NCBI GenBank assembly: GCA_030684405.1
Contig: JAUXYA010000021.1
Coordinates: 62,001-126,000, forward strand
Reading direction: 5' to 3'
Source: Burkholderiales bacterium
GTDB lineage: Bacteria; Pseudomonadota; Gammaproteobacteria; Burkholderiales; SG8-41
DNA: 64,000 nt
Under the pieces are notes generated by a model. It had not been told where the DNA came from. It made no database searches and saw nothing but the letters and a program-made list of their open reading frames with translations. The position numbers and the translations under genes are program-made. This document shows, piece after piece, positions 3,176-52,544 of the stretch. The stretch's first letter is position 1. Each line of letters begins with the position of its first letter.

Positions 3176-3697
3176 TTGCCGACGCGCAAGCTCACCCCAC
3201 GCGTTGCTACGGCAATCTTATTTGGCGTGCTTGCCGCGTTCACACCGCCGGGTAAGCCGATGCTGGTTTTCGGCATCCGCCTCCCTTCATTTTTCGTCGT
3301 CGGGGACTTGCTGCTTCTGTTGCTCTCGCTATCCATGGTGCAGGCGCACATCAGCCCTAAGCGCAAGACACCAGAGAAAGACAAAGTTGAGAGACCCATC
3401 GGTGGCGTCACGTTCGGGAGGCCGCCGCTTGCAGATTTGGAAACTATTACCCACGTCATCTTCGCCGCGAATGCAACGCCCGGCGGGATTGCACATCAGA
3501 CCATGAGTGCGCTGTTTGCCATCAGCGCTTGGCTATCGGTTCGTCTTACTCTTGCGTTGTTTGCACAAAAGATCAGCGCCACCGATATCCAAATTCATCA
3601 CGTGACGCGTCTGATGGTCCTCATCATCGCCGGCATTCAGATAGGGATGATGGTCAGCGGACCGAGCATGTTGTTTCCGGGGGGGCTGTTCGGATGA
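3176..3697 (+). CDS. MarC-family membrane protein, probably 5'-degenerate
   Basis: A hydrophobic 173-residue frame resembling the C-terminal three quarters of MarC (UPF0056) inner-membrane proteins, whose function is unknown. The motifs LVFGIRLPSFFVVGDLLLLL and RLMVLIIAGIQIGMMVSG match the corresponding MarC helices. The family's first helix with an NPxGxxPxF motif is absent from this frame, which has only a TTG start. A fitting stretch (EQIGTAPLFQAAAHGFADA, about 3130-3186) sits just upstream in another frame. This suggests a frameshift near 3190 (decay or sequencing error). The family call is moderate, and the functionality is doubtful. Confidence 0.5.
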   Translation: MPTRKLTPRVATAILFGVLAAFTPPGKPMLVFGIRLPSFFVVGDLLLLLLSLSMVQAHISPKRKTPEKDKVERPIGGVTFGRPPLADLETITHVIFAANATPGGIAHQTMSALFAISAWLSVRLTLALFAQKISATDIQIHHVTRLMVLIIAGIQIGMMVSGPSMLFPGGLFG

Positions 3698-3934
3698 TCG
3701 TCCGAAGGCAATAAGATTCGCACCGGTCGCCAGTGAAAGCGCCGATCCGACGATCGCAGTATCGGTCGACGTGTCATTGAGTGTCACAGCAATTGCCCGT
3801 TTGACGGATTCTCTCAATGAGCGCGTGGGCAAGACGAAACAGCTCCTTGAGCTCGGCCATCGGCCTTCCCCACGATCAGCAGCACGTGGTGGCAGGTGCG
3901 CACGAGGTAAGTACCGATATTCCCTAGAAGGATT

Positions 3935-5500
3935 TTATTCCCACTCAATTGTCGCAGGCGGTTTGCCTGAAATATCGTACACCACGCGATTGATACCGCG
4001 CACTTCGTTGATGATGCGATTCGACACTTTGGCCAAAAGGCTGTACGGCAGTTCCGCCCAGTGTGCGGTCATGAAGTCCGTAGTTTGTACCGCGCGCAAG
4101 GCGACGACGTATTCGTAAGTACGTCCATCGCCCATCACGCCAACAGACTTCACCGGCAGAAATACTGCAAAGGCCTGCGCTGTTTTGTCATACCAGCCGG
4201 AAGCACGCAGTTCTTCAATAAAAATTGCGTCTGCTTCGCGCAGCAGGTCGGCATACTGTGCCTTGACCTCACCAAGGATACGCACACCCAGGCCCGGGCC
4301 CGGAAACGGATGACGGAAAACCATGTCGCGCGGCAGGCCAAGTGCGAGGCCGAGGTCACGCACCTCATCCTTGAACAATTCGCGCAGCGGCTCCAGCAGT
4401 TTCAGGTGCAGCGTGTCGGGCAGGCCGCCGACGTTGTGGTGCGATTTAAAGGTGTGCGCTTTCTTGGTCTTGGCGCCAGCCGACTCGATGACATCCGGAT
4501 AAATCGTGCCCTGCGCCAGCCATTTTGCCGCCGGCAGCTTCGCAGATTCGGCCTGGAACACTTCGACAAATTCGCGGCCGATGATTTTCCGTTTCTGTTC
4601 GGGGTCTGTGACGCCTGCCAGGTGGCCCATGAACTGCTCGCGCGCATCAACATGGATCACCCGCACGCCCAGGTTCTGCGCAAAAGTAGCCATCACCTGA
4701 GCAGCCTCATTAAGCCGTAGCAGGCCGTTGTCGACAAAAACGCAGGTCAGCTGTTTGCCGATGGCACGGTGGATCAGCGCTGCAGCCACGGAAGAATCGA
4801 CCCCTCCCGAAAGGCCGAGAATGACCTCTTCTTTGCCGACCGCATGCCGTATGCGCTCGACCGCCTCGTCGACATAATTGGGCATGCTCCAATCGCCCTT
4901 GAGACCGCAGATTCCCAGCACGAAGCGCTCGATCAGCGCCCTGCCCTGCGGCGTATGAGTGACTTCCGGATGGAACTGCACGGCATAGAACCTGCGTGTT
5001 TCATCAGCCATGCCGGCGATGGGGCAAGTGTCGTTGCTGGCCATCAGCTTGAAGCCCGCGGGCATGTCGATGACCTTGTCGCCGTGGCTCATCCATACAT
5101 CGAGCATGCCGTGGCCGTCCGCTGTGGCGCGATCCTGAATGTCTTTCAGCAGGGCTGTGTGGCCGCGCGCACGCACTTCGGCATAACCGAACTCGCGCAC
5201 CTCGCCCATTTCGACCCTGCCGCCGAGTTGCTCGGCCATGGTCTGCATGCCGTAGCAGATGCCCAGCACCGGCACGCCTAATTCATACACCAGCGCCGGC
5301 GCCCGCGGCGTGCTGTCTTCCCAGACAGAGGCGGGACCACCGGAAAGGATCACCCCGGCGGGCTTGAAGGCTCTGATGAAATCGTCGGTGACGTCGTGCG
5401 GATGGAGTTCGCAGTAGACGTGAAGTTCGCGCACCCGGCGAGCAATCAACTGGGTATATTGCGAACCGAAATCGAGAATCAGTATTTTTTCGTGTTGCAC
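3935..5500 (-). CDS. guaA: GMP synthase (glutamine-hydrolysing)
   Basis: Cytoplasmic GMP synthase converts XMP, glutamine and ATP to GMP. The 521 residues match the family length. The N-terminal class I glutamine amidotransferase domain has its nucleophile in GICYGMQ (Cys about 82) and the FHPEV His/Glu pair. The ATP pyrophosphatase domain carries the P-loop LSGGVDSS. The C-terminal GMP synthetase dimerisation domain ends in KPPATIEWE, the canonical terminus. It lies 57 bp downstream of guaB on the same strand, so the two steps from IMP to GMP are probably co-transcribed. Confidence 0.98.
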
Positions 5501-7965: not shown

Positions 7966-8386
7966 GCAACTGCTCGGCCCGTCTGAGGAAAGCGTCCATC
8001 ATCGACCCTGCGATATGACCGAAAACCGGCCCGGCGATCTTCTCGAGCAGCACGCTGGAAAACTCGTAATGAAGACTGAAATCGACCTTGCACGCTGAAT
8101 CCGTCAATGGCGTGAAACGCCACTCACCGTCGAGAACCCGAAATGGCCCCTCGATGAGCTTCATGGTCATACTTTCGGGCGCATGCTTTCGGTTTTCTGT
8201 AGAAAACACCTGCCTCACACCACGGTAATTGACCTGTATCGACGCATTGGTCTTTTCGGTGGTGCGCAGTGTCACCGTAGTGCCGCTGCACCAGGGGAGG
8301 AACTCGGGATACCGCTCGATATCCTCGACGAGCGCGAACATCTCCTCCGCGCCGTATCCGACCAGTGCCGAGCGGGCTACTTTCAT
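7952..8386 (-). CDS. ratA: RatA / CoqJ-like START-domain protein
   Basis: A 144-residue SRPBCC/START-type protein. The family includes E. coli RatA (reported to interfere with ribosome subunit joining) and Coq10-like ubiquinone-binding proteins. Diagnostic residues are the N-terminal MKVARSALVGYGAEEMFALVEDIERYPEFLPWC pattern (YGAEEMF, ERYPEFLPWC) and the C-terminal IAGSMMDAFLRRAEQL helix lining the pocket. It sits divergent to smpB (66 bp apart), the conserved ratA/smpB pairing, and its 3' end overlaps the RnfH-like gene. Confidence 0.93.
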   Translation of the reverse strand: MKVARSALVGYGAEEMFALVEDIERYPEFLPWCSGTTVTLRTTEKTNASIQVNYRGVRQVFSTENRKHAPESMTMKLIEGPFRVLDGEWRFTPLTDSACKVDFSLHYEFSSVLLEKIAGPVFGHIAGSMMDAFLRRAEQLHGKR

Positions 8387-8451
8387 GACACAGACCGCAA
8401 TCGCGGCGCCAGCCCGGTTAAAATACGTCTGATAAGGCGTCGTCCATTCAT

Positions 8452-8898
8452 ATGAGCATCGTTGAGAACAAAAAGGCTTTTTACGATTATTTTATCGAAC
8501 AGCGTTTCGAGGCGGGTATAGCCCTCGAGGGCTGGGAGGTAAAGGCCATCCGCGCAGGCCGGGCTCAGATCAAGGAAGCATACGTGATCATCGGCAACTC
8601 GGAGCTCTCCCTGCTGGGCTGCCATATCAGCCCCTTGCCAACGGCATCGACGCATGTTCAGCCGGACCCCGTCCGCACCCGCAAGCTCCTGCTCCATGCC
8701 GAGGAAATCAACCGCCTGATCGGCAGTGTAGAGCGCGCAGGATATACGTTGATTCCCCTGGATCTGCATTATTCAAAAGGCCGGATCAAGCTTGAAATCG
8801 GGCTGGCCAAGGGTAAAAAACAGCACGATAAACGCGCTACCGAGAAAGAGAAGGAATGGCAACGCGAACAGCAGCGTCTGCTGCGTGTACGGTCCTGA
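8452..8898 (+). CDS. smpB: SsrA-binding protein SmpB
   Basis: SmpB binds tmRNA and delivers it to stalled ribosomes for trans-translation. The 148 residues cover the whole family: the N-terminal [20 protein letters not shown] barrel start, the [19 protein letters not shown] core, the [12 protein letters not shown] and [26 protein letters not shown]-binding segments, and the basic C-terminal tail that enters the decoding centre. No tmRNA gene is visible in the window. The gene is the last chromosomal gene before the prophage; the insertion point lies 30 bp after its stop codon. Confidence 0.97.
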
Positions 8899-8927
8899 GA
8901 ACTGATATCCGGTAAACCTGAAATAGG

Positions 8928-8934
8928 TGGGGTG
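8928..8934. repeat. attL core (TGGGGTG), left prophage end
   Basis: A seven-base direct repeat identical to 51669-51675, where it forms the 3' terminus (CAC-C-CCA) of tRNA-His. It is followed by a small hairpin (GGGGT at 8929-8933, ACCCC at 8939-8943). The repeat places smpB on one side and phage DNA on the other. This is inferred as the left attachment junction from the matching repeat, the gene content on each side and the recombinase at the other end. Confidence 0.6.
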
Positions 8935-8945
8935 CCGTACCCCGC

Positions 8946-9488
8946 TCACTGCGAACCGCCGTCGTCATCGCCATCCTTCCGGATCGATTTCGCCGCGCCG
9001 CCTGAGCGGCGCTTCATCAGCGTCGATATGTGCCTCTCACTGATGTGCTCCAAAAGGTTCAGTTTGACGGCGGCCTGAATATCGCTGGGAGACATCCCCG
9101 AGGCCGCCAGGGTCTCAATATACCGGTTCCGCTGGAATCGCTCCCAGGAGCGCCACGGCCTCAGCCGGAGCTGCAGGTAACCCCGCTCCATCGCCCCGCC
9201 AGCGCGGAAGGCTGGATCGCTGTCGGCGATCCGCCACAGTGCCAGGAAGGCGTCCGCGCCGATCGTTTCGGCGACACGCATCCACGAAGAGGAAATACCC
9301 ATCGCGCGCAATTCCGCGAGCCGTGGATCGTCGCGAATTTCAAAATTTGAACCTGTGCAGCTGGATAAGTACCCACCCCCCCGGGCGGGAGGCTGGGGGT
9401 CTGATCGCCGACCCCCCACCCTCTGCGGATCCACGTCCAGGCCACCAGCTCTGGCCCTGGCACTGCGCTTTTGAGCACGGTCAGGCAT
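8946..9488 (-). CDS. Phage DNA-binding-like protein (helix-turn-helix)
   Basis: A 180-residue frame, the leftmost phage gene, ending 12 bases inside the left attachment core. Residues from about 50 onward look like real protein: LAELRAMGISSSWMRVAETIG, FLALWRIAD, RYIETLAASGMSPSDIQAAV and ISERHISTLMKRR. The last part resembles the helix-turn-helix tail of Mor-like phage regulators; this is a weak resemblance. The first 45 residues are Arg/Pro/Gly-rich and overlap a GC hairpin (9395-9416), so the true start may be downstream. Function unknown; regulation of the adjacent recombinase is a guess. Confidence 0.6.
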   Translation of the reverse strand: MPDRAQKRSARARAGGLDVDPQRVGGRRSDPQPPARGGGYLSSCTGSNFEIRDDPRLAELRAMGISSSWMRVAETIGADAFLALWRIADSDPAFRAGGAMERGYLQLRLRPWRSWERFQRNRYIETLAASGMSPSDIQAAVKLNLLEHISERHISTLMKRRSGGAAKSIRKDGDDDGGSQ

Positions 9489-9723
9489 GGCTGCAGCCCC
9501 TGATCGAGGGGCCCACTACTGCGCCTTTCTCAGGACCACGCAGTTCCTGATTTAGGCGATTTAGCCCGTTATTGACGAAAGTTGCAGGCCGCGCCACTGC
9601 ATCCGGCTTTGCCCACATCAGCACAGAGTGAAACGCCCCCATTCCATATTTACCAGTCAGCTTCCCGCACTGTGAGTTGTGACGCCCTGCAACGAAACGG
9701 ACGCGGCGAAGGCCTGCCATCAT
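9481..9723 (-). CDS. Small phage hypothetical protein
   Basis: An 80-residue frame fitted between the tyrosine recombinase and the terminal DNA-binding gene. Its ATG overlaps the recombinase stop and its stop overlaps the next ATG by 8 bases, the coupling pattern seen throughout this prophage. The sequence (GKLTGKYGMGAFHSVLMW, RPATFVNNGLNRLNQELRG) has balanced composition, unlike out-of-frame readings here, but I recognise no family. Confidence 0.4.
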   Translation of the reverse strand: MMAGLRRVRFVAGRHNSQCGKLTGKYGMGAFHSVLMWAKPDAVARPATFVNNGLNRLNQELRGPEKGAVVGPSIRGCSHA

Positions 9724-10721
9724 GATTTCAGCCGCTCGAGGATGGCAGAGGTCGGTGTCTTGATCTGGCCAAGAGGATTGGCTCGATCGACTTCACGCAC
9801 CAGCTTGCGCATAGCGATCAAGGTATAGATCTGAGTGCTCTTGGGATCCGCGTGCCCCATCAGCTGCTGCTGCACCAGCAGATGCACATCGTGCTCGGCC
9901 ATCTCGGTGCCGTATAGGTGGCGCATGGCATGGGGGTGCAGCTGGTCGTCAGGTATCCCCAGAGGCCGGCCGTATTTGGCAATCATCTTCAGGACCGACT
10001 GGCGCGTGAGCCGCAGTCTTTCGCCGCGGGTTTCCCGTGCCGATGCGGTGCGGTTCCTGGTGCTGACGAAGAGAACCTGGTCGCCATCAGGCAGCATCCG
10101 GTCGATCGTCTTCAGCATCGGGTGTTCCATGTAAACGCGGAGCTGTAGATCCGCTTCCGCCGGCACCGGCACCAGGCGCTCCTTGTCGCCTTTCTCGCGG
10201 ACACGGATGAACATGCGGTCGCGGCCATCGACCTTCTGAGTCAGCACATGCCCCGCATTCAGATTGACCAGGCCGCTCACACGAAGCCCGCAGCCGGCGA
10301 GCAGCGCAATCATCGCGCAGTCGCGCACCCCGACGAAGGTGTGCAGATCCGGAGCCGAGATCAGGCGCTCGATGTTTGCCAGGGAAATGACCCGGGGAAG
10401 TTTACTGCCTGTCCGCGGGTACGGAACACCATGCGACGGGTTGCGATCGAGCAGCTGCTGATTGAACAGCCACTGGTAGAACTGGCGCACGGCCGCGACG
10501 TAAGGCCGGCGCGAATTCGCCAGCACGTTGCGCTTAGCCAGCCACGGCCCAGTGAAACCCACCAGGTCATCCTGATCCGCATCGAGCAGATCCTTGCCAC
10601 GCATGTATTCCTGCAGCTGCTCGAGCGCCAAGCGGTAGATCTGCACCGTGCGCAGCGCGCGGCCGCGGTTGTGACGCTTGAACTCGAGGAACTGCTCAAT
10701 GAGGGCGGTGCGATCGGTCAC
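9720..10721 (-). CDS. Tyrosine recombinase (XerC/D-like phage integrase)
   Basis: A full-length 333-residue site-specific recombinase. An N-terminal SAM-like core-binding domain (LIEQFLEFKRHNRGRALRTV to about residue 100) precedes the catalytic domain. All active-site residues are visible: Arg in CGLRVSGLVNL, Lys in REKGDKERL, His/Arg in HPHAMRHLYG, His in LMGHADPKS, and the nucleophile Tyr in TQIYTL. It lies near the left prophage end, but the attachment repeats fit the serine recombinase better. Its role may therefore be excision, dimer or concatemer resolution, or it may be inherited from another element. Its start overlaps the ASCH gene stop (ATGA). Confidence 0.92.
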   Translation of the reverse strand: MTDRTALIEQFLEFKRHNRGRALRTVQIYRLALEQLQEYMRGKDLLDADQDDLVGFTGPWLAKRNVLANSRRPYVAAVRQFYQWLFNQQLLDRNPSHGVPYPRTGSKLPRVISLANIERLISAPDLHTFVGVRDCAMIALLAGCGLRVSGLVNLNAGHVLTQKVDGRDRMFIRVREKGDKERLVPVPAEADLQLRVYMEHPMLKTIDRMLPDGDQVLFVSTRNRTASARETRGERLRLTRQSVLKMIAKYGRPLGIPDDQLHPHAMRHLYGTEMAEHDVHLLVQQQLMGHADPKSTQIYTLIAMRKLVREVDRANPLGQIKTPTSAILERLKS

Positions 10722-16235: not shown

Positions 16236-16539
16236 GCCGCGATCTCCAGTGAAGGATCAGCCCGCTCGATCCAGTGTTTTTCCGCGTTCGGGTTCGCGTA
16301 GCAGAAGCGCGAGCCCTTCCGGTGCTTGAAGTGATACCCGCCGCAGTTGCAGGCCTGCACCCGGCCCCAGCGATGCGCCAGCCGGTCCCTACAGGGATAG
16401 AGGCGGTGGTAACCACAGACCCGGCACCGGGGGGGCGCACGTAGTCGGCCCAAAGCTTCGGCAGCGTGCGCCGTGCCTCGCACTTCACGCAGCGGTGCGG
16501 CATGCGGGTGAAGCGGGGTTTGGGGAGGACGCGGCGCAT
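16232..16539 (-). pseudogene. Zinc-ribbon gene interrupted at a C7 run
   Basis: Two frames together make one sensible protein of about 102 residues. The first half reads MRRVLPKPRFTRMPHRCVKC to WADYVRPP from the ATG at 16539, coupled (TGATG) to the upstream HTH-array gene. The second half, in another frame, reads RCRVCGYHRLYPC, ACNCGGYHF to the stop at 16232. The break is at a run of seven C (G7 on the plus strand, 16429-16435); one extra C would restore the frame and give a paired CxxC...CxxC zinc ribbon. It may be a sequencing indel, a real mutation or slippage. Confidence 0.6.
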
Positions 16540-18422
16540 CAGGCGGTCTCCTGCAGCCATGCCGGTGGCACTGCCCGCTTGAACCGTTGGTTCTGCCAGT
16601 GCCGGCGCGCGCAGGCGCGCACGGCACGGCGGTGGTAGCGGAGCCCCTTCGCCGATCGCCGCGGCACCAGGCGCTTTTCATCGGCCCAGCGGATCAATGT
16701 TCCGATCGATACCCCGGCCTCGGCGGCCGCCGAGCTGAGCAGAAGCCAGTTGCCGTTCAGCACGCGGCGCTTGTTCGGCGATCGGCGCGCCTGCTTCAGC
16801 CGCTGCAGCATCGGTTCGGTCAGGTAAGGGCGATGCTTGTCCCAGGGCGCGCGAGTCAGCCGCACAGTGCCATCGAGTATCCGCGCGCGCACCCATTTCA
16901 CTGTGCGCCCGATCGCCTGCGCTGCCTCCTCGACCGTATAGCCCTGGCGCGACTGCACCCGCTTGATCGCCGCCTGCAGAACCAACAGCGTCACACGGCC
17001 ATCGGCACGCCACCCGGTGCCGCGCAGCAGCCCGCGAAGCTGTGCCACGCTGACGCCGACCTTGCGCGCCGCCTCGGTGTGGCTGTATCCGGTCTTCTGC
17101 CTCAATTCGGCCAGTTGCTGCCGCAGCACGTAGGTCACCCCGCGCTGCGGGCCGTTGGTGCCCACCTTGCTGCGCAGCTTGCCGTGGCGGATCAGCCGGC
17201 TTAGCTCGGAAGGCTCGAAGTCATAGCGGCTCGCAGCAGTGTTCAGTGACACCCAGGAGGTTTCTCCGGCTCCGGTCGGACAGCGACGGGCCTTCCAGCG
17301 CTGCGCATCGGTACGCGACACGTAGACAATCCTGCGGCGCTTGCTCGCGCTCAGAGCGCCGTTTTCGATCGCACGCTTGACGCGGTAGATCGGGACACCC
17401 GCGAGCTTTGCCACCTCCGCCGGCCGTAACCCCGGGGTCCACACCCGCGTCAGGTGTTTTTTCGCGCCGAGATCCAGCGGCGGGTACCGCTTCGCATAGT
17501 CGTCGAAATCAGTCGGGAATCCGCCTCGCCCCCAGATCTTGCGGCAGGCCTCGCAATCGTCCGGGTGACGGCGCTCCTGCAGCAGTTTCCAGGTCACCTT
17601 CAGATTGCTCAGGGTCGGCTTGCCGAACCAGGGCATGGGCCGTCCGGCCCGGCGATCGGCCAGCAGCTTGAGCGCCACACGCCGGTCCACGTACCAGCTG
17701 CCGCGCACTGAAGAGGAATGCCCGGCGCCGAGCTTCGGATTGCACAGCACCGCGGTCGGGATATAGCCCATGGCCGCGTATTCCGGCAGCTTGGCGTCGC
17801 TGCTGATCCCCAGACGCTGGCGGATCGAACTCAGCATCACATAACCTGCCGGCGGCGGCGGCCGGTCGGCCTTGAAGCGTTGCCATTGGTCGTGCGGGAT
17901 GACCCACAGCTTGCCGATACGGAAGGGCGTCAGGCGGCCGCTGCGGATCGCGTGGTGCACCGTGGAGTAGCTGCCGATCTCCCGCGCCGCTGCGGGCGCG
18001 GTGATGCCGCCCAGGACGTCCCGCGACACCAGGCCAATGCGGTTGATCGCCACCTGCACCGCTTGCTGGGAGCGTTCGGCATGGCGATCGCCGGTGGCCC
18101 GCTGCAGCCGCGCGGTTAGGGCCTGCGCGATCTGCGCCTTGCCGATCGTCCCCACCAGCGTCGCCAGCAGCGCCAGCTCGTTCTGGAGCCATTCATAGCC
18201 TTTGCCGTGCCGGCGGCGCGGTTTGGGCCACTCCTCATCACGCGGGGGACGGCCATGCCAAAGCTGGAACAGTTCGTCGAAGGTACGCGCCCGCTTCAAT
18301 CGCCGGCAGATCCCGGTATCGCGCAGCTTGAGCACGACCTCCACTGGCTGCCCGACCACCTGCGCCAGGTGATGACCGTTTGCCCGCCAGCCGTAGGATG
18401 CGACGAAGCGCTGCCAGTCCAT
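16539..18422 (-). CDS. Tandem helix-turn-helix array protein (627 aa)
   Basis: The start is the ATG at 18422 (MDWQRFVASYGWRANG), overlapping the ATPase stop as TGATG; upstream residues in this frame are low-complexity. The protein appears to be a string of DNA-binding units of roughly 45-60 residues at about 10-45, 85-135, 139-185, 193-258, 330-380, 388-440, 445-488, 493-545 and 557-608. Examples are ITAPAAAREIGSYSTVHHAI, LRPAEVAKLAGVPIYRVKRA, YTVEEAAQAIGRTVKWVRAR and SSAAAEAGVSIGTLIRWADE, several followed by excisionase/MerR-like wings. A CxxC pair sits at 290-293. No catalytic domain is visible. Such an array could read an extended DNA site. Function unknown; probably works with the coupled ATPase. 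Confidence 0.85.
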   Translation of the reverse strand: MDWQRFVASYGWRANGHHLAQVVGQPVEVVLKLRDTGICRRLKRARTFDELFQLWHGRPPRDEEWPKPRRRHGKGYEWLQNELALLATLVGTIGKAQIAQALTARLQRATGDRHAERSQQAVQVAINRIGLVSRDVLGGITAPAAAREIGSYSTVHHAIRSGRLTPFRIGKLWVIPHDQWQRFKADRPPPPAGYVMLSSIRQRLGISSDAKLPEYAAMGYIPTAVLCNPKLGAGHSSSVRGSWYVDRRVALKLLADRRAGRPMPWFGKPTLSNLKVTWKLLQERRHPDDCEACRKIWGRGGFPTDFDDYAKRYPPLDLGAKKHLTRVWTPGLRPAEVAKLAGVPIYRVKRAIENGALSASKRRRIVYVSRTDAQRWKARRCPTGAGETSWVSLNTAASRYDFEPSELSRLIRHGKLRSKVGTNGPQRGVTYVLRQQLAELRQKTGYSHTEAARKVGVSVAQLRGLLRGTGWRADGRVTLLVLQAAIKRVQSRQGYTVEEAAQAIGRTVKWVRARILDGTVRLTRAPWDKHRPYLTEPMLQRLKQARRSPNKRRVLNGNWLLLSSAAAEAGVSIGTLIRWADEKRLVPRRSAKGLRYHRRAVRACARRHWQNQRFKRAVPPAWLQETA

Positions 18423-19366
18423 CACCCGCGGCCCTCCAGCTCGTCCTGCAGCGCCCTGCGGCCCGCCAGCAGCTGCTGCGGCGTCAGGCCCGCCACGGCG
18501 CCCAGCAGCTGCACTACGGGCGCCGTCAGGGCCATCAGCCGGCGTTTCGGTATCTCGCGCATGGCGCGGTCCCACTGGCTGAAGGTCGTCGGCAGCTTCT
18601 GGGTCACCGGCAGCGCCTTGGGGGCCACCTTCGCCAGCTCCCGAGCCATCGGCATGCGCACCCGGTCCACCCCGCTGCGGCTGAAACAGAAAAACTCTCC
18701 CGGCGACAGCCCGGCCAGCTCGGCATAGCCGATCCGCGATCCGCGGAACTGCGGGGCCAGCGCCGCCCAGGCCGTGGGGTCTTCCTGGCAACCGATCAGG
18801 GTCAGGTTCTTGTGCGCAAAAATCGTCCGATGCAGCGAGCCGGTGAAGCGGGTGGCGGTCAGGAACAGATCCAGAGCGCGCTTGCGGCCGCGATCGGCGA
18901 ACTGGTTAACCAGGTCCGCCGCCTCGCCGGCGTCGCCCTTGCGCTTCTTCGCGGTGCTGAAGAGCTGCCCCTCGTCCAGCATCAGGAAAATCGGTTTACG
19001 CAGCCGATCCGCAGCGTCGAGGATCGTCCGCCCGTAGGGAATGAACTCGCCAGCATCCACCGCGGAGACCACCACGATCTCGCGGTCACGTTTTTCCAGG
19101 CAATGCTGCAGCTCGTCGACGCCGGACGCCGCCTCGCCGTACATCGAGGCCAGCTCGCCCTCGGGATCCACCAGCACCGACACCCAGCCCTGCTCCGCCA
19201 GTTGCTCGGCCACCACCAGCCCCGCGTTGGTCTTGCCGATGCCGCTGGGCCCGATCGTCACCATGCGCAGCCCCGTCGTCGCATACGGTGCCAGATCGAC
19301 CGACACGCTGCCGAACTCCAGCAGGGCGTCCTCCAGCTCGGCACGGCGGATCACCTTATTCACCAT
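18422..19366 (-). CDS. P-loop ATPase of the HerA/FtsK type
   Basis: A 314-residue cytoplasmic ATPase with no membrane segment. Walker A is GPSGIGKT at residues 39-46, followed by the VLVDPEGELASM strand typical of HerA/VirD4/FtsK pumps (DPxGE). Walker B is IFLMLDEGQ (Asp131/Glu132), an RGRKR segment may be the arginine finger, and LFLTATRF is the sensor strand. Such enzymes form hexamers that move DNA or load partners. The gene is sandwiched between a 135-residue protein (11-base overlap) and the helix-turn-helix array (TGATG overlap), implying a three-protein unit. Confidence 0.8.
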   Translation of the reverse strand: MVNKVIRRAELEDALLEFGSVSVDLAPYATTGLRMVTIGPSGIGKTNAGLVVAEQLAEQGWVSVLVDPEGELASMYGEAASGVDELQHCLEKRDREIVVVSAVDAGEFIPYGRTILDAADRLRKPIFLMLDEGQLFSTAKKRKGDAGEAADLVNQFADRGRKRALDLFLTATRFTGSLHRTIFAHKNLTLIGCQEDPTAWAALAPQFRGSRIGYAELAGLSPGEFFCFSRSGVDRVRMPMARELAKVAPKALPVTQKLPTTFSQWDRAMREIPKRRLMALTAPVVQLLGAVAGLTPQQLLAGRRALQDELEGRG

Positions 19367-19763
19367 CGCCGCCCTCCTTCGCGCCCAGCAGCACGTCCTG
19401 CAGGCGCAGCACCTGGCCGGCGCTCAGCGAGAACACCACCGCGAAGTCGTCGATCGTCTGCCGCGTCACTGCCTGCAGCGTGCCGTCGCGGCGCGCCTTG
19501 GCCACCAGCTTGCGCAGCGCGTTCCAATCCTGGTCGAAATCACCCTCGGGCTGGGTCGCGCCGATTTCCGCGTGCAGCTGCTCGATCGTGTATTTCTGCT
19601 CGGCGCAGCCAAGCTCGGCTACCAAGCGTTCGTTCAGCACATCGAGCAGCTGCTGCGACGACATGTAGCCGTGCAGCCGGTGGATCAGCGCCTTGTCCGC
19701 CGCGGTGAACGCGCGCGGGTTATCGCGCAGCAGGTGAATGGTGCGGGCCGGGGCGTTCATCAA
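19356..19763 (-). CDS. Hypothetical protein coupled to the ATPase
   Basis: A 135-residue, mostly helical protein overlapping the ATPase start by 11 bases. Sequence segments such as ADKALIHRLHGYMSSQQLLDVLNERL and FDQDWNALRKLVAKARRDGTL suggest one or two helical, possibly winged-helix, domains. I know no family. Its fixed position before the ATPase and helix-turn-helix array suggests an adaptor or regulator in the same unit. Confidence 0.65.
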   Translation of the reverse strand: MMNAPARTIHLLRDNPRAFTAADKALIHRLHGYMSSQQLLDVLNERLVAELGCAEQKYTIEQLHAEIGATQPEGDFDQDWNALRKLVAKARRDGTLQAVTRQTIDDFAVVFSLSAGQVLRLQDVLLGAKEGGDGE

Positions 19764-20005
19764 TGCACCACCGGCGCTTCAACCGTGGGCTGCGGCTCAC
19801 CCGCGTCGCCGAGCGACACGCGGACCAGCGGCACGACGCCGAACACCTTGGACAGCTCACCCGCCATCCGTTTTTTGTGAAAAGCGATCGCCTTGCGGCG
19901 ATTCACGCCGCGCCAGTAAGCCTCGCCCCAGCTTGACCGATGAAGGCGGCGCGCAGTTGCTGTTGGATCTGGCAGAGACCAGGTGCGGAGGCGTTTCATT
20001 TCCAT
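19760..20005 (-). CDS. Small basic phage protein
   Basis: An 81-residue protein with a basic N-terminal half (RLHRSSWGEAYWRGVNRRK, AIAFHKKRMAGELSKVFGV) and an acidic, Pro-rich tail. It overlaps the next gene by 4 bases and the preceding gene by 10. The charge distribution would fit nucleic-acid binding. No family is recognised. Confidence 0.5.
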   Translation of the reverse strand: MEMKRLRTWSLPDPTATARRLHRSSWGEAYWRGVNRRKAIAFHKKRMAGELSKVFGVVPLVRVSLGDAGEPQPTVEAPVVH

Positions 20006-22305: not shown

Positions 22306-22592
22306 ACCGGCCGCCCTTCAGCCGCGCTCTGCACCAGCCGCTGCTTTTCACCGAAGGCGAAATGACTGCCTTGCACGTTCCACAGCTGCGGCGGAATCTC
22401 TTTCAGCCAGCGGCGGATGATCTCCCGGCCGACGTGCTCGGCGATGATCCCGGGTTCCGGGCTGTCGAAAGAGCTGGCCGGGTTCGCCTGCGCGACATGC
22501 CAGCAGACCGCCAGATATTCGTCAGCGTAGGACTGCAGCGCATCGAGGTCGATGTCGATGCGGATGGTTTTGATCGGGTTGGTCGCGGTCAT
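22302..22592 (-). CDS. Phage hypothetical protein
   Basis: A 96-residue protein (TIRIDIDLDALQSYADEYLA, HVGREIIRRWLKEIPPQLWN), alpha/beta in appearance with a conserved-looking Trp. It is coupled by 4-base overlaps to the tyrosine recombinase upstream and the zinc-finger gene downstream. No family is recognised. Confidence 0.6.
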   Translation of the reverse strand: MTATNPIKTIRIDIDLDALQSYADEYLAVCWHVAQANPASSFDSPEPGIIAEHVGREIIRRWLKEIPPQLWNVQGSHFAFGEKQRLVQSAAEGRPV

Positions 22593-23239
22593 GCCGGCAC
22601 ACCCTCAAACACCTTCCGCATGTCCCGCCGGCGGCCGCGGCCGGGCTGGTGGACCTGGCGCAGCGCCGCCTCCAGCTCTTCCTTGCTGACGCGGGTGTAG
22701 AAACCGCTGGAGCTGATGTCGGCGTGGCCGAGGGCGGCCTGGACGATGCCGCGGGGATCGCGGGCGGTGGATCGCCGCATGATGTTCATGGCGTGGGTGT
22801 GGCGGGCCCAGTGCGGGCTGCCCTGGATGCCGGCCTTGCGGCACCAGTGGCGGTAGCGGTCCTGGTAGCCGCGGATGGACATCGCGCGGCCCTTGCGGCT
22901 CCAGATCAGCGGCTCGTCGTCGGCGCCGCTGCCGCCGCACTGCCGCTGCAGGTCGAGCAGCGCACGCAGATCGGCGCGCATCGGCTCGGTCACCAGCACG
23001 CTGTGATCCTCGCGCTTACCCTTCCGGTGCTCCTTCGGGATGAAGAGCCAGCCCTGCTCCAGCGCCAGTCGGGCCTGGCGCACAGTCACCCGGGAGAATT
23101 CGCCAATACGCATGCCCGACAGGCGCAGAAGATTGATCCACGCCGCATCGCGCTGCGCTTCGGGTGCCCGGAACTGGCGGATGCAGCGCAGCAGCGCCGT
23201 CTGTTCCGCCTCGGTGTGATATCGATGGTTGATCCGCAT
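22589..23239 (-). CDS. Short tyrosine recombinase (catalytic domain only)
   Basis: A 216-residue recombinase lacking the usual N-terminal core-binding domain. The catalytic set is complete: Arg in SGMRIGEFSR, Lys in HRKGKREDH, His/Arg in PHWARHTHAM, His in ALGHADISSS and Tyr in GFYTRV. The ribosome-binding site AAGGAG lies before the ATG at 23239. This is the second tyrosine recombinase in the prophage. Being embedded among early genes, it may resolve replicated or concatemeric DNA or invert a segment. No obvious paired sites are visible next to it. Confidence 0.85.
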   Translation of the reverse strand: MRINHRYHTEAEQTALLRCIRQFRAPEAQRDAAWINLLRLSGMRIGEFSRVTVRQARLALEQGWLFIPKEHRKGKREDHSVLVTEPMRADLRALLDLQRQCGGSGADDEPLIWSRKGRAMSIRGYQDRYRHWCRKAGIQGSPHWARHTHAMNIMRRSTARDPRGIVQAALGHADISSSGFYTRVSKEELEAALRQVHQPGRGRRRDMRKVFEGVPA

Positions 23240-47139: not shown

Positions 47140-47378
47140 GGTTTACCTCGGGTCATTTTCAGTGCCAGGGAGTTTTCGAGGGCAACGGCGACGTTGACCA
47201 GTTTGCGCGGCCGCGGTGGACCTTCGACGAGGACGCCGGTGACATTGCGCCAGCCGTCGATGAGCCCCAGTTGCGTGAGTTCCCGGATCTGCGGCAGGAG
47301 GTCCGGGCAGTGTTTGTGTACGGCGGCGCGCATGTTTTCGGCATGGGCGCGCTGCGCGGGGGTGAGTTGTTCGCTCAT
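47136..47378 (-). CDS. Small protein between terminase and portal
   Basis: An 80-residue protein starting at 47378 (MSEQLTPAQRAHAENMRAAV), overlapping the terminase stop (ATGA) and the portal start (ATGA). It reads HKHCPDLLPQIRELTQLGLI, then GWRNVTGVLVEGPPRPRKLV. The frame continues far upstream as an Arg-rich reading inside the terminase gene, but only this last part has protein-like composition. Function unknown. Confidence 0.7.
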   Translation of the reverse strand: MSEQLTPAQRAHAENMRAAVHKHCPDLLPQIRELTQLGLIDGWRNVTGVLVEGPPRPRKLVNVAVALENSLALKMTRGKP

Positions 47379-49024
47379 GCTGCGGCCTGCGCCGGCAGCC
47401 GCGGGGCCTGCCCGAGCAGCTGTTCGCGGGTCTGGGTGCGGACGGAGATGGCGGTCGGGGTGTCGATGACGCCGCGGGTGACCTGGGCCCAGACGGCGGC
47501 CATGGCGGCGTCGAACAGGTCGTCGCCGATCTTGGGGTCGACCATTTTGTAGCTGGCGTAGCTGGCTTTTGTGGGCGTGGCCTTGATGTTGACGAGCTGG
47601 CGGATGAAGGCTGTCCAGTCGGGGCCGGCTTTGCCGCCGTTCTGCGCGGAGCTGAGCTGGATGACGTTGCGGCCGACCTGGCCGAGGATGTCTTCCATGT
47701 CGGCGTCGAAGTAAGGGATGGCGGCCCGGCCGTTGTGGAATATGGATCTGAGGGCGCTGGCCATGCTGTGTTTGACCATGCCTTCGAATCGCAGGGGCTG
47801 GAATGCCCAGTCCTGCCAGGCGCTGCCGGTGCTTTGTCCGTCGGCGATGCTGCGGCGATCTACGGAGGTCAGGCCTGCGGCGTAGAGCCGGTCGTTGAGG
47901 CTGGTGAGCATGCCGACGCCATAGGCGTCGCCGATGGCGTATTCGGGCCGGAAGTAGTCCCAGAAGGCGTACAGGTCCATTTCGATCAGTTTGTCGTCGG
48001 TGCCGGCGGGCCAGGTGTGCACGAACGGGAAGGTGGTGAAGTTGCCGATCTGTTCGGTGACGACCAGGGCGGATTTGGATGCTGTGGGGCTTTCGCCGTG
48101 GCCGGTGTGGTCGTAGCCGAAGGCGATGATGCCGCGTTTTTTGTAGCGGTCGCCGGGCATCGGTTCGGCGATCGCGAGGTGGGCTTTGAGGCCGATGGTC
48201 AGGGCCTGGCGCACGGCGCGTTCGTGTATGTGGTTGGCGGCGGCGACGTTTTTGCAGAGGTACTGGCGGATCCATTCGGCTGCGGGCAGTTGTCCGCGCA
48301 GGCTGAGGACGAAGTCGCGGTTGAGGATGCCGAGTTCGATGCCCATGTAGACGTTGACGACGGGCAGGATGTGGTATTCGCCGCTGTTGATGAGCCGCTG
48401 CAGGGTGTCGGCGCCTTTGAAGACGCCGGAGATCCGCACGCTGGGCTTGAAGGAGGCGTCGCGCGGGGCACCCATGCGGCCGGATCCGCCGAGCATGGGC
48501 AGGAAGCGTGAGAGCAGCCGCTCCTGGGGCATGTCGTCGGTTTCTTCGAGGGAGGCGATGCTGAGGGCGTCGCCGTCGATCTGGGACATGATGCCGTAGG
48601 CCTGGGCTTTGGAGCGGTTGACGAATTCGTAGCCTGAGTCGGTGAGTTGTTCGCGTCCGCTTTTCCAGTTGACGTAGGCGCGCAGGATTTCGGAGCGGCG
48701 GATGGCTTCGCCGTGATACGCGAGGTTGGTCAGGGACTGCTGCAGCCGCGGGGCGACGATGCCCTCTTCCTGGTATGGCTGGGTGGCGAGTTTTTTCAGG
48801 CAGTAGAGTTCTTTGATCGAGGTCTTCCGGGTGCGGCGCGCGGAGAAATCGACGGTGTTGGGGTGCGCATCCATTTCCATGCACTTGAGGATCTGCATGG
48901 GGTCGAGCTCGACGTTGTGGATGTGTTTGTGCCAGAGGGCATGGTCGTCCTTGAATCGCAGCAGTTCGCGTTCTGCGCGGATGGAGAGTTTGACCCGGTC
49001 TCCGGAGGACAGGCGCAGGCTCAT
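47375..49024 (-). CDS. Terminase large subunit
   Basis: A 549-residue packaging motor. An N-terminal ATPase region contains a deviant Walker A (SARRTRKTSIKE, with Arg where Gly normally precedes Lys), a Walker B/catalytic-Glu segment (ALSIASLEETDD) and a coupling region. The C-terminal RNase H-like nuclease has acidic strands, e.g. IIAFGYDHTGHGESP and YAIGDAYGVGM. It translocates and cuts DNA at the portal. ATGA overlaps link it to the zinc-ribbon gene before and the 80-residue gene after. Confidence 0.85.
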   Translation of the reverse strand: MSLRLSSGDRVKLSIRAERELLRFKDDHALWHKHIHNVELDPMQILKCMEMDAHPNTVDFSARRTRKTSIKELYCLKKLATQPYQEEGIVAPRLQQSLTNLAYHGEAIRRSEILRAYVNWKSGREQLTDSGYEFVNRSKAQAYGIMSQIDGDALSIASLEETDDMPQERLLSRFLPMLGGSGRMGAPRDASFKPSVRISGVFKGADTLQRLINSGEYHILPVVNVYMGIELGILNRDFVLSLRGQLPAAEWIRQYLCKNVAAANHIHERAVRQALTIGLKAHLAIAEPMPGDRYKKRGIIAFGYDHTGHGESPTASKSALVVTEQIGNFTTFPFVHTWPAGTDDKLIEMDLYAFWDYFRPEYAIGDAYGVGMLTSLNDRLYAAGLTSVDRRSIADGQSTGSAWQDWAFQPLRFEGMVKHSMASALRSIFHNGRAAIPYFDADMEDILGQVGRNVIQLSSAQNGGKAGPDWTAFIRQLVNIKATPTKASYASYKMVDPKIGDDLFDAAMAAVWAQVTRGVIDTPTAISVRTQTREQLLGQAPRLPAQAAA

Positions 49025-49986
49025 TTCGCGGAGGCCTCGGCGGCGCCGGTGTCGGCGTTGTATTCGAGGAGCACCGGGTCGCGGTCGGTTTCCTTGCGGC
49101 CGCGATCGACCATGCCGGCGATGCGCTCGAGCGCCTGGGTCTGGCGCTGCTGGAATTCGAGGAGGTTGTCGCGCGCGGCTTCGGTGGCGGCGAAGCGGCC
49201 CATGTCGTCATTCTGCTGGTCGATGACTTTGACGGTCATGCCCATGTCGGCCAGGGAGTAGTTGTTGCGGGACATCAGTTCGCCGAGGGGTTTGAACAGA
49301 GGGTGCGCCTGGATGTCCTGGATGATTTTGTTTTGCTTGGTTTCTGGATCGAAATACTCGGCGATGATCATCACGCCTTCTTTGTCGGTGTAGTACTGCG
49401 GCGCGGTGATCTTGACGCCGTCGGCGATGATGGTCTGCAGGATCTGCTGCAGGACGGTGAACACGGCGGCCTGGAAGTTGGAGTGCAGGCCCTGCAGTTT
49501 TTTCGGGTCGCGCTGGTCGAATGCGGCGTGGTGCAGCAGGAAGGTTTCGGTCTGTTTGATGCACGCGGGCTGTGATTTGCACCAGGTGCGATCGACTTCG
49601 CAGCTGCTGCAGAAGCTGTAGCTGTCGGGTTTGGCCGGGTAGTAGGTGGCGACTTTCGCGTGCATGCCTGTTTTCATGGCGTTGAAGCGGGTGCGGCGTG
49701 CTTCGTCCGGGGTCGGGTGCCCTTCCAGGTTCTTGGCTGTGGCGATTTTGCCCTCTTCCGTTTTCGGGCCGGTGGCGTTCTGCCAGGCTTTCTGCAGGGC
49801 GCGGTCCCAGCCGGACTGGGGGGTCTCCTGGCCGCAGTCCGGGCAGTCGCCGAAATACGTGAACGGGTGGTGTTCCTGGTCCGGGTTGTCTTCGGTCCGC
49901 GCCGGCTCGGCGTCAAAGGTCCGCCTGCAGGGTTTGCAGTGGAAGTTGACGCTGGCCCGGGGTTTGTGGGGGTCGAATTTCGGCAT
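49021..49986 (-). CDS. Zinc-ribbon packaging protein, putative terminase small subunit
   Basis: A 321-residue protein, first gene of the late operon. The start is the ATG at 49986 (MPKFDPHKPRASVNFHCKPC); further upstream codons are not conserved-looking. An N-terminal zinc ribbon (FHCKPCRRTF and FGDCPDCGQE) precedes GHPTPDEARRTRFNAMKTGM. A second Cys cluster follows (SFCSSCEVDRTWCKSQPACI), then a helical C-terminal part. This family regularly precedes the terminase in phages of betaproteobacteria. DNA recognition for packaging is inferred from position and zinc motifs only. Confidence 0.7.
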   Translation of the reverse strand: MPKFDPHKPRASVNFHCKPCRRTFDAEPARTEDNPDQEHHPFTYFGDCPDCGQETPQSGWDRALQKAWQNATGPKTEEGKIATAKNLEGHPTPDEARRTRFNAMKTGMHAKVATYYPAKPDSYSFCSSCEVDRTWCKSQPACIKQTETFLLHHAAFDQRDPKKLQGLHSNFQAAVFTVLQQILQTIIADGVKITAPQYYTDKEGVMIIAEYFDPETKQNKIIQDIQAHPLFKPLGELMSRNNYSLADMGMTVKVIDQQNDDMGRFAATEAARDNLLEFQQRQTQALERIAGMVDRGRKETDRDPVLLEYNADTGAAEASAK

Positions 49987-50077
49987 GCTGGGATTCTCGG
50001 CCGCAGGTGAGGAACAAACCACTATGGGAAAACGGCCAGACTCGGGCGGTTCATAGTTGCGCAAGAACGGTCGTGGT

Positions 50078-50098
50078 TGTGAACCCCGGCGATTCACA
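50078..50098. promoter_or_regulatory. Palindromic operator-like site before the recombinase
   Basis: TGTGAA and TTCACA form a perfect inverted repeat with a nine-base spacer (50078-50098). It lies midway in the 146-base gap between the leftward late operon and the rightward serine recombinase, a divergent promoter region. A TAAAAT hexamer at 50121-50126 could be the recombinase -10. A regulator binding here could control both units; which one is unknown. Confidence 0.4.
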
Positions 50099-50132
50099 CT
50101 CGGCGGCGGGCTACCGGCGGTAAAATTTCCGG

Positions 50133-51680
50133 ATGAAAAAAACCGCGGTGATCTATGGCCGGGTCAGCAGCGTGGCCCAGGCGGAGGAGGAGTTGCCGAT
50201 CGAGGGGCAGATCGAGGCCTGCCGGCGGGAGGCGCTGCAGCTGGGGGCGACGGTGTTGCGCGAGTTCATTGATGCGGGGATCTCGGGGCGCTCCGCGGAT
50301 CACCGGCCGGCTTTCCTGGAGGCGATCGGGTTCTGCAAGGATCATCAGGTGGATCTGTTCATCACCTGGAGCACTTCGCGGTTCGCGCGCAACCGGATCG
50401 AGGCGCCGGCCTACAAGCTGAAGCTGAAGCGGCATGGGACGAATGTGGTTTTCGTCAGCAACAAGATCGACAACTCGACGAAGGAAGGCTGGATGATGGA
50501 GGGCATCCTGGAGCTGTGGGATGACTTCCAGAGCCGCACGATCGCGGAGGATACGTCGCGCAGCATGCGGAAGAATGCCGAGGATGGTTTCTTCAACGGC
50601 GGGCCGGTGCCTTTTGGTTATCGCTCTGTGCCCGTCGGGAAGCGGCGCAAGCTGGAGGTTGTTGAGCACGAGGCGGCGATCGTGCGCGAGGTTTTTCGGA
50701 TGTATGTCGAGGGGCACGGTGCGAAGTCGATCGCGATGTCGATGAATGCGCGCGGCTGGCAGCGCCGGCGCGCGCCATGGAGCAAGGCCTCGGCCGAGTG
50801 GACGTTGAAGAACTGGGTTTACGCCGGGTATCTCGTCTACAGCCGGCATTCAAATGCGGACCGGTTCGATCGTGATCAGTCGCAGTGGATCAAGACCCTC
50901 GCCCATCAACCGATCATCGAGGAGGCTCTATTCATGGAAGTTCAGAAACGCGTCAGCGCCCGTGCATCGGGCACCGGCAAGGGAAGCCCGCTGAGCACCC
51001 ATCTGTTCACCGGCATGCTGAAGTGTGGTGCCTGCGGTGGCGCGATGACGATCGAGACCGCCACCGGCCGCAGCAAGACCTACAGCTACTACAACTGCAT
51101 GAAGAGCATGAAGGGCGCCGGCTGCAGCTCGCGGCGGATCCCCGCCCGCGATTTCGATCAATGGATGGTCGATTACATCGTCACCCAGGTGATGAGCCAC
51201 GACAATCTGCGGAAGATCGCCGGCGACGTGCATAACACGGTCGTAGACTGGGCCCGCTCCAGGGAAGAGCAGCGGGCGGCGATGGTCGCCGAGCTGCGCG
51301 AGATCGAGGCCCGCCGGCTGAAGCTCTACGATCTGATGGAAACCACTGAGAAAAGCGCCCTGAACCTGGGTGACCTCTCCCCCCGCCTGCGGGATCTGAA
51401 CGCCAGAACGCGGCGCCTGGAGGTCTCCCTGACGGATCTGGAGAACATCGAGCCGCCCCAGGTCACCGTGGACGAGGCTGACCTCGATTCAGTCCGGGAT
51501 TTCGTCCGCGAGATCATCACCACATCCGATAACCCGCGGAAAGTAAGGGAATTCCTGTCCGGATTTGTCGAGCGGATCACCATCCGCGACGACGGCGCCG
51601 AGATCGAGTTCCGGCGCGACCGCCTGGTCACCGCTAATGCCACGGAAACGGTTCACAGCAAAAAAGTCTGGGGTGGCTGA
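50133..51680 (+). CDS. Large serine recombinase (prophage integrase)
   Basis: A 515-residue large serine integrase. The N-terminal resolvase domain has the nucleophile in IYGRVSSVAQAEEELPIEGQ and Arg residues in SGRSADHRPAFLEAIGFC and WSTSRFARNRIEA. The recombinase domain (GPVPFGYRSVPVGKRRKLEV), zinc ribbon (GMLKCGACGGAMTIET, CMKSMKGAGCSSRRIP) and coiled coil/C-terminal part follow. It is read rightward and its last four codons (TGG GGT GGC TGA) lie in the attachment core and tRNA-His. In the circular phage genome the frame would continue about 23 codons into the left end. Confidence 0.93.
   Translation: MKKTAVIYGRVSSVAQAEEELPIEGQIEACRREALQLGATVLREFIDAGISGRSADHRPAFLEAIGFCKDHQVDLFITWSTSRFARNRIEAPAYKLKLKRHGTNVVFVSNKIDNSTKEGWMMEGILELWDDFQSRTIAEDTSRSMRKNAEDGFFNGGPVPFGYRSVPVGKRRKLEVVEHEAAIVREVFRMYVEGHGAKSIAMSMNARGWQRRRAPWSKASAEWTLKNWVYAGYLVYSRHSNADRFDRDQSQWIKTLAHQPIIEEALFMEVQKRVSARASGTGKGSPLSTHLFTGMLKCGACGGAMTIETATGRSKTYSYYNCMKSMKGAGCSSRRIPARDFDQWMVDYIVTQVMSHDNLRKIAGDVHNTVVDWARSREEQRAAMVAELREIEARRLKLYDLMETTEKSALNLGDLSPRLRDLNARTRRLEVSLTDLENIEPPQVTVDEADLDSVRDFVREIITTSDNPRKVREFLSGFVERITIRDDGAEIEFRRDRLVTANATETVHSKKVWGG
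51669..51675. repeat. attR core (TGGGGTG), right prophage end
   Basis: The direct repeat partner of 8928-8934. On the minus strand it is CACCCCA, the last seven nucleotides of tRNA-His including the discriminator and CCA. Integration leaves the tRNA intact on the right. A core this short suits serine recombination, where the exchange needs only a few identical bases. Confidence 0.6.
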
Positions 51681-51745
51681 TGGGACTCGAACCCACGACA
51701 ACCGGAATCACAATCCGGGACTCTACCAACTGAGCTACAGCCACC
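51669..51745 (-). tRNA. tRNA-His (GTG)
   Basis: A 77-nt tRNA on the minus strand with encoded CCA. The acceptor stem GTGGCTG pairs with CAGCCAC, with the extra G at -1 opposite C73 that is the hallmark of histidine tRNA. The anticodon loop TTGTGAT gives GTG; the T-arm GTGGGTTCGAGTCCCAT is canonical. Its 3' end serves as the prophage attachment site and overlaps the recombinase stop codon. Confidence 0.97.
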
Positions 51746-51776
51746 ACTGAAACCGCTACTGTCCGCACCGCGAATC

Positions 51777-51853
51777 TGGCGCGCCCGGCGGGACTCGAAC
51801 CCACAACCCCCGGCTTAGAAGGCCGGTGCTCTATCCGGTTGAGCTACGGGCAC
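51777..51853 (-). tRNA. tRNA-Arg (TCT)
   Basis: A 77-nt tRNA on the minus strand with encoded CCA. The acceptor GTGCCCG pairs with CGGGCGC, the anticodon loop CTTCTAA gives TCT, and the T-arm GTGGGTTCGAGTCCCGC is canonical. It lies 31 bases upstream of tRNA-His in the same direction; both are probably cut from one transcript. Confidence 0.97.
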
Positions 51854-51903
51854 AAATAACCGGCGGGGATGCCGGGAAAACCCGCCATAAACCGAAGGCG
51901 CGT

Positions 51904-51933
51904 AATATACTCCCCACCCTGCTTGAGCGTCAA
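51904..51933 (-). promoter_or_regulatory. sigma70 promoter of the tRNA-Arg/tRNA-His unit
   Basis: On the minus strand TTGACG (51933-51928), 18 bases, then TATATT (51909-51904), followed by a GC-rich discriminator (ACGCGCC), the pattern of a stringently controlled stable-RNA promoter. It directs transcription leftward into tRNA-Arg about 45 bases on. dksA, encoded divergently next door, makes the product that regulates such promoters. Confidence 0.75.
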
Positions 51934-52025
51934 TTAAACAGGCTTAACTGCGTCCGCCGGCTGGCTTGCGGGGGGTATCGAATTCTGATATTAAATGCTC
52001 TTTTTTTGAGCGCACAAGGTTCCTC

Positions 52026-52448: not shown

Positions 52449-52474
52449 CAACAGAAACGGAATGCGGTTAGCTA

Positions 52475-52510
52475 AAAAGAAAGAGGGGGCCGCGGCCCCC
52501 TCTTTCTTTT
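52475..52510. terminator. Bidirectional intrinsic terminator, dksA / pnp
   Basis: A perfect 18-bp inverted repeat (AAAAGAAAGAGGGGGCCG and its complement) lies between the convergent dksA and pnp genes. The GC core is flanked by A- and T-rich arms on either side, so it can end transcripts from both directions. Confidence 0.9.
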
Positions 52511-52544
52511 GCAGTGCTGATGCACTGGCGGCGACTCAAGCCAA

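Follow-up and report, generated by a model that had tools for sequence, protein, structure and literature searches.

HerA proper is defined by its N-terminal HAS barrel, and the MADS system is a set of mad1–mad8 genes. Across the HerA/FtsK class of ATPases, an arginine finger is described just upstream of core strand 4, with the sensor-1 glutamine at the end of that strand (PMC10853773). HerA/FtsK ATPases are found together with DNA-binding proteins made of several winged helix-turn-helix (wHTH) units in capture-type defence (DndH and relatives), and the systems described there have active nucleases and two to four wHTH units in the related protein (PMC10853773, PMC12839542). Single wHTH units can also line up along DNA: BldC and RdfS are reported to form head-to-tail filaments (PMC5859096, PMC11963761), and indirect readout has been proposed for RdfS (PMC11963761). 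Here we analyse three overlapping genes, all on the minus strand, in a prophage that spans approximately 9.7–51.7 kb of a window of 64,000 nucleotides (the whole stretch of DNA analysed, from contig JAUXYA010000021.1 of a Burkholderiales bacterium). The trio encodes a HerA/FtsK-type ATPase, a long array of HTH units and a small protein. With a probability of approximately 40%, we take it to be a DNA-site-addressed motor with which mobile elements act on their own DNA. While the parts are known, we found no description of this combination in the open PMC literature searched, which was covered mostly as titles and the starts of abstracts.

The small protein (P0003; 134 amino acids (aa), no known family; 19356..19760, minus strand, as are all features of the trio given below) is encoded first, followed by a 314-aa P-loop ATPase (P0002; 18422..19366) and the 627-aa HTH array (P0001; 16539..18422). 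The gene for the small protein overlaps the start of the ATPase gene by 11 bases, and the ATPase and array genes overlap in the sequence TGATG. An earlier reading made from the letters alone (hereafter, the sequence-only reading) had described the array and the ATPase as coupled through TGATG, and the ATPase as coupled to the small protein; it gave the latter a length of 135 residues, the TTG at 19763 used in that reading adding one residue to the 134 aa from the ATG. A longer operon probably includes the trio, because the TGA stop of an upstream 81-aa open reading frame (ORF; 19760..20005, minus strand) overlaps the ATG of the small protein’s gene, again as TGATG. The minus strand carries 47 of the 48 genes called in the prophage, which encodes a tyrosine integrase, a 944-aa primase, an HNH protein, a CII-like protein, head, tail and lysis proteins and a large serine recombinase; the CII-like, HNH and primase genes share the strand of the trio. 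The three ORFs are retained in dozens of relatives and look to be under purifying selection in the pairs tested, judging by ratios of non-synonymous to synonymous substitution rates of 0.06–0.24 for the ATPase (four pairs), 0.13–0.42 for the array (four pairs) and 0.14–0.23 for the small protein (three pairs).

The AlphaFold model of the ATPase (predicted local distance difference test, pLDDT, 84.1; predicted template modelling score, pTM, 0.74) was compared with the PDB using Foldseek. The best matches are HerA (E = 8e-8), TcpA, a SIR2-linked HerA and STIV B204 (target-normalised template modelling score, TMt, up to 0.75), with EccC, VirB4 and FtsK ranking lower; RecA-type folds were also returned, with weaker E-values. 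By predicted fold, the protein is a member of the HerA/FtsK/TcpA/VirB4 class, to which STIV B204 belongs. No Pfam model reaches its cut-off on the ATPase, DUF87 is matched by 8 of 32 family members at E ≤ 0.1 (best 0.01), and a sequence search of solved structures returned mostly Walker-region matches, the best being to RecA fusion chains. The motifs resemble those of the class. In our alignments, the rows of which were selected by completeness (32 for the ATPase, 30 for the array and 31 for the small protein), the ATPase has invariant G39, P40, G42, G44, K45 and T46 in Walker A (GPSGIGKT, residues 39–46; 19229..19252), invariant D67, P68, E69 and E71 in a DPxGE-type motif (DPEGE, residues 67–71; 19154..19168), and an invariant DEGQ (residues 131–134; 18965..18976) that ends Walker B, with its catalytic Glu, within LMLDEGQ (residues 128–134). 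The sequence-only reading had assigned the ATPase to the HerA/FtsK type and named the DPxGE and LMLDEGQ motifs, and the fold matches agree with it. R159, R161 and R163 are invariant directly before the strand at residues 165–171, where the class has its finger, and this position alone suggests a finger role. Unlike the class, the ATPase has neither a predicted HAS barrel nor a membrane part: in the predicted structure, the Walker A strand comes after just 33 residues, which include a short hairpin. The small protein has no significant Pfam or PHROG match, and its only match among the sequences of solved structures, to DptH, is at chance level (E = 0.71).

The AlphaFold model of the array, made with 28 relatives in the input, has a mean pLDDT of 84.3 and a pTM of 0.41; its units are therefore well defined and their arrangement is not. 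Nine HTH-like units and a central non-HTH module are seen in the predicted secondary structure, from which we read the unit borders. An HTH-like unit recognised by predicted structure only (U1, residues 12–58; 18249..18389) is followed by a three-helix unit that is Myb/SANT-like by eye only (U2, 76–134; 18021..18197), a winged HTH (U3, 136–190; 17853..18017) and a second one, winged by predicted structure only and with a conserved second helix (U4, 192–262; 17637..17849). The non-HTH module (263–328; 17439..17636) comes next, and then five more HTH units: U5 (328–382; 17277..17441), which gives the best match to Pfam HTH_17; U6 (387–447; 17082..17264), winged; U7 (442–495; 16938..17099); U8 (492–550; 16773..16949), winged; and U9 (556–614; 16581..16757), a winged HTH of the MerR-like kind with a conserved PPxW tail behind it. 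H286, C290, C293 and H323 of the central module are invariant in 30/30 rows and probably form a metal site.

In profile–profile comparisons U3, U5, U6, U7, U8 and U9 are mutually homologous, with pair scores of 14.4–62.0. The highest score in the control, in which the units were compared with fragments of the ATPase, was 16.4, and only U6–U7 among the 15 pairs falls within that range; U1 (best score 16.7), U2 (14.3) and U4 (17.6) are not clearly above it. By profile comparison and predicted structure, the six homologous units are excisionase/MerR-like winged HTHs. HTH_17 scores 47.6 bits on the array (gathering cut-off 27) and is matched by all 30 members at E ≤ 0.01. The sequence-only reading had proposed about eight or nine tandem units of this kind. 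Nine are indeed predicted by structure, and the excisionase/MerR-like identity is borne out, while homology by sequence extends to six only, and a conserved His/Cys module lies in mid-protein. As that reading also held, no catalytic domain is recognised in the array, all Pfam matches being to HTH or winged-helix models, and structure prediction gives repeated HTH-type units rather than a single known enzyme fold. Short structural matches in the PDB, all above E = 0.001, include MerR-family, RacA–DNA and BldC–DNA structures; two matches to viral structure models (126 and 156 aa long) pass 0.001, and a sequence search of solved structures returned nothing below E = 0.5. The array shares with BldC, RdfS and Xis the unit fold and, by Pfam, the HTH_17 family, and its units could line up head to tail along DNA as described for BldC and RdfS (PMC5859096, PMC11963761). 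It differs from them in being one chain with an invariant His/Cys module, where they are one-unit proteins in a non-covalent assembly.

The array is basic (118 K+R versus 47 D+E). Its recognition helices have a mean conservation of 0.53, as compared to 0.57 for the whole protein, with U4 the exception at 0.69. In eight close pairs of arrays, which partly overlap, the recognition helices are more divergent than the first helix in 8/8 (once by just 0.002) and more divergent than the remaining residues in 5/8. This lack of special conservation argues against one common target sequence; the variation fits element-specific sites, indirect readout and rival-dependent targets alike, and does not separate these.

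The trio is tightly linked. With the ATPase as the query, 17 contigs were found among the predicted viral contigs of IMG/VR, of which all carry the array and 16 the gene for the small protein; the sole absence (L018) falls at a contig end, the contig beginning inside the ATPase. All three genes are present in 17/17 genome contigs, the array being cut by the contig end in two, and each of the three carriers among 72,556 plasmids also has the array and the gene for the small protein. With the array alignment as the query, 20 viral loci were found (the same 17 contigs and three more), with the ATPase in 20/20 and the small protein in 19/20. The order of the ATPase and array is constant across co-occurring loci, and wherever a relative seen here has the array or the ATPase at full length, the ATPase is found next to an HTH array, which sets the trio apart from the HerA/FtsK class. 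Across 27 loci, the distance matrices of the three proteins correlate (rho 0.56–0.71; largest null value 0.35). The loci are not independent: L006, L007, L008 and L015 have identical BLAST identities and scores, as do L026 and L027, and L035 and L040 come from the same Variovorax strain. Frames appear shifted in the arrays of L026, L032 and L033; of these, L032 was excluded from the array alignment and the other two were kept unchanged.

Two plasmids break the strict linkage. The array query matched five plasmid records, the three trio plasmids and two without the ATPase, and we take the proteins of the latter as reduced or decayed forms of the array. One is a 279-aa Polaromonas plasmid protein with the last two units; the other, a 274-aa ORF on a Burkholderia glumae plasmid (L062:2954-3778), joins an N-terminus like that of the small protein to the last two units. 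Short unannotated pieces of this ORF are present in six other B. glumae plasmid records, and the ORF itself lies near type IV secretion genes, without an ATPase match. The trio is also rare. Scans of 50,697 phage records at E ≤ 0.01 yielded no match to either the ATPase or the array, in line with the sequence-only view that the trio fits no phage module, and only the window’s own genome carries it among 74 genomes of the family and among 369 of the class (E ≤ 1e-10 in the class); the search tools detect only close relatives, and the window’s own record may be missing from the genome and phage searches, so that absence is relative to them. The co-occurrence of ATPase and array that the sequence-only reading anticipated is thus seen throughout the viral and genome contigs, while the tie to a prophage that it assumed is not: plasmids carry the trio too.

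We favour a machine that works on the element’s own DNA because of the motor fold, the DNA-binding type of the array and the DNA-metabolism neighbourhoods. The trio would be expressed together with early DNA-metabolism genes. The array would act much as the wHTH filaments that BldC, RdfS and Xis build head to tail, but with its units covalently joined, wrapping a long duplex (roughly 60–80 bp, at the ~9 bp per unit of a BldC protomer) and thereby marking a site on the element. Lacking a HAS barrel itself, the ATPase would be docked by the small protein or by the conserved core of the array, assemble beside the marked site and move or clamp the DNA, with segregation, resolution or the handing on of replicated DNA as the outcome. 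DNA binding, docking, ring assembly and movement by the trio are all steps that we infer. That the trio represents a new class of addressed motor, in which a pre-assembled, element-specific wHTH superhelix recognises tens of base pairs and guides a HerA/FtsK ring to them as a segregation or transfer device of phages and conjugative elements, is a more tentative proposal.

Several observations weigh against the addressed motor. No DNA site was found: when iterons or a centromere-like site were sought by repeat searches, the matches were few in strength and scattered, all of them weak, and there is no AT-rich landmark at a consistent place in the 17 sequences examined. The overall shape of the array is undefined at its pTM of 0.41, and the model of the whole array has no PDB structure match at E ≤ 0.001. 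The net charge of the array, positive in 30/30 rows, ranges widely, from +11 to +79. Two plasmids keep the last two units and no ATPase. In the phage yong1, a relative of the prophage, nothing matches either the ATPase or the array, and the trio is therefore dispensable in such a phage. Finally, unlike the HerA/FtsK class, the ATPase lacks the sensor-1 glutamine, with no Gln at residues 165–177 in any of the 32 rows; residue 171 is Ala in 32/32 and residue 172 is Leu, Thr or His, the sensor place being 171 or 172 depending on the alignment. Together with the missing HAS barrel, this makes it possible that the ATPase clamps DNA rather than pumping it.

A possible, if doubtful, alternative is that the trio is a conflict module, in which the array reads the DNA of a rival or its modification state and the ATPase holds or pumps that DNA for blocking or for an external nuclease; just as tentatively, such a module could be a pared-down variant of the HerA/FtsK capture systems already published. 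We keep this alternative because the pairing of HerA/FtsK with wHTH proteins, fast-evolving ones in the systems described, is a known defence theme (PMC10853773, PMC12839542), and because two MADS models match in PADLOC, where the scan took in the three proteins and one fused HerA only. The ATPase matches mad8 (E = 6e-8, positions 32–290 of 314) and the array matches mad1 (E = 1e-17). However, both models also pick up generic families: the fused HerA of L006 scores 56 bits to mad8, as compared to 30.5, and the matches may reflect no more than such a general likeness. No further MADS-type gene was recognised among the neighbours scanned, and PHROGs or Pfam gave no kinase or methyltransferase among 24 other window proteins (of 48 called in the prophage). 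The recognition helices, which in close pairs differ to roughly the same extent as the other residues, would also suit a module of this kind, as would a trio that has no fixed neighbours, lacks a match in yong1 and looks reduced in some plasmids. On the other hand, no nuclease domain, kinase or other effector is recognised in the trio, a difference from the capture systems as described. The trio also overlaps an upstream ORF on the same strand in the window and so is not stand-alone cargo, although its expression from an early operon is itself conjectural.

We consider it unlikely that the trio is a regulatory or silencing complex, with the array as a large repressor or nucleoid-like protein and the ATPase as a loading or stripping switch. 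The structural relatives of single units do include regulators (BldC, the MerR family and TraN), and the copy on plasmid pTY921B lies near ParB and DUF2857-type genes, which correspond to the domain pair of BisDC, the transfer activator of ICEclc (PMC7423338). Yet relatives of the pTY921B ParB and DUF2857 protein are found in only 1/33 loci, with the DUF2857 match below the Pfam cut-off. To our knowledge, regulators seldom require as many as nine reading units, or an ATPase of this kind. Of the conjugative systems with similar parts, the coupling ATPase TcpA shares the motor fold, and TraN of pIP501 is among the Foldseek matches of the array (probability 0.69, E = 0.67); no relaxase or type IV secretion gene was recognised among the 24 window proteins scanned (of 48 called in the prophage), while genes of this kind, MobH and TraD, are annotated near the pTY921B copy.

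Less likely again is a counter-defence role, in which the array would coat the DNA of the incoming element against restriction and the ATPase would spread the array. The place of the trio among early genes in the window, the basic array and the presence in both viral contigs and plasmids would suit it, while no restriction-related neighbour proved general in searches with chosen queries, and we know of no case in which a HerA-class enzyme loads a coat protein at the expense of ATP.

A packaging motor with a DNA-recognition subunit, suggested by the packaging NTPase STIV B204 among the closest folds of the ATPase and by its best PHROG match (phrog_2666, ‘terminase large subunit’), is very improbable and was set aside: a terminase-like protein is encoded separately in the prophage (47375-49024), close to a portal-like gene, and matches the DNA packaging protein of yong1 (54% over 98% of its length), and plasmids carry the trio too. 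That terminase-like protein is recognised only via yong1; on the side of a packaging role for the trio, neither Pfam nor PHROG matches it at the thresholds applied, and our pattern finds no canonical Walker A in it. As to transposition targeting, no transposase lies next to the trio among the window genes examined, no systematic search having been made, and insertion sequence (IS) elements are found farther from it on the Variovorax plasmid.

Were the addressed motor correct, the trio would be a three-protein motor of mobile elements whose DNA address is provided by many wHTH units joined into one long natural array. It would offer a system for studying how HTH arrays read DNA, how HerA/FtsK rings load at chosen sites, and by what route machinery for maintenance or conflict comes to be common to phages and plasmids. 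Were it a defence device instead, it would be one without a recognised effector.

The trio stays together while the surrounding genes change. We surveyed neighbours by clustering ORFs of ≥ 70 aa and by chosen queries in 33 loci, which remained after removal of L007, L008, L015, L027 and L019 (the same contig as L002), with both loci of the Variovorax strain kept. The larger clusters are overlapping-frame ORFs inside the trio itself. The commonest neighbour, a PAPS reductase-like protein, is found in 7/33 loci, and no other neighbour exceeds that; the counts are lower bounds because flank lengths differ between loci. On pTY921B the trio follows genes for ParB, the DUF2857-like protein and two hypothetical proteins and precedes AcaB, DUF3158 and SSB genes, with MobH and TraD annotated nearby; on the Variovorax plasmid it sits between gyrA and thyA. 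The HNH gene near the trio in the window has no relative in the other loci by BLAST. Outside Burkholderia phages, the closest cultured relative of the prophage, by primase and terminase-like protein (54% each), is the Microcystis phage yong1, whose annotated primase, HNH, XerD and CII genes follow the gene order of the prophage.

Other HerA-class ATPases lie near the trio in three loci (L002:6201-7979, L006:7199-8953 and L017 at about 3530-4498), and one named phage record, MW202482, has a relative over 82% of its length. In L002 and L006, these are fused HerA-wHTH proteins, with DUF87/HerA_C above the Pfam cut-off and two similar C-terminal wHTH-like repeats (by eye), and they resemble a one-protein version of the ATPase-plus-wHTH theme on the same contigs. 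They differ from the trio in being single polypeptides, and their ATPase is only distantly similar to that of the trio (27% over 221 residues for L002).

Directly upstream of the trio, L002 also carries a reverse transcriptase (8800-9591; phrog_1423) preceded by a possible variable protein (8230-8784, by eye), perhaps a diversity-generating retroelement; relatives of a reverse transcriptase in L011 are found in L012–L014, L023 and L002. An optional 128-aa gene of no known family lies between the ATPase and the array in L002 (10942-11328), L004, L005 and L016. Five loci have an N6-methyltransferase-like gene near the trio, downstream of the array in L025, L026, L028 and L029 and upstream in L037, with a Pfam match in L028. 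As for the ends of the prophage, no exact 12-mer that could mark att sites is common to 8400-9900 and either 51000-52700 or 49500-50300. Three recombinases are encoded in this one prophage: the tyrosine integrase (9720-10721), a short integrase-like protein (22589-23239) and the large serine recombinase (50133-51680), the end of which overlaps a tRNA-His gene (51669-51744).

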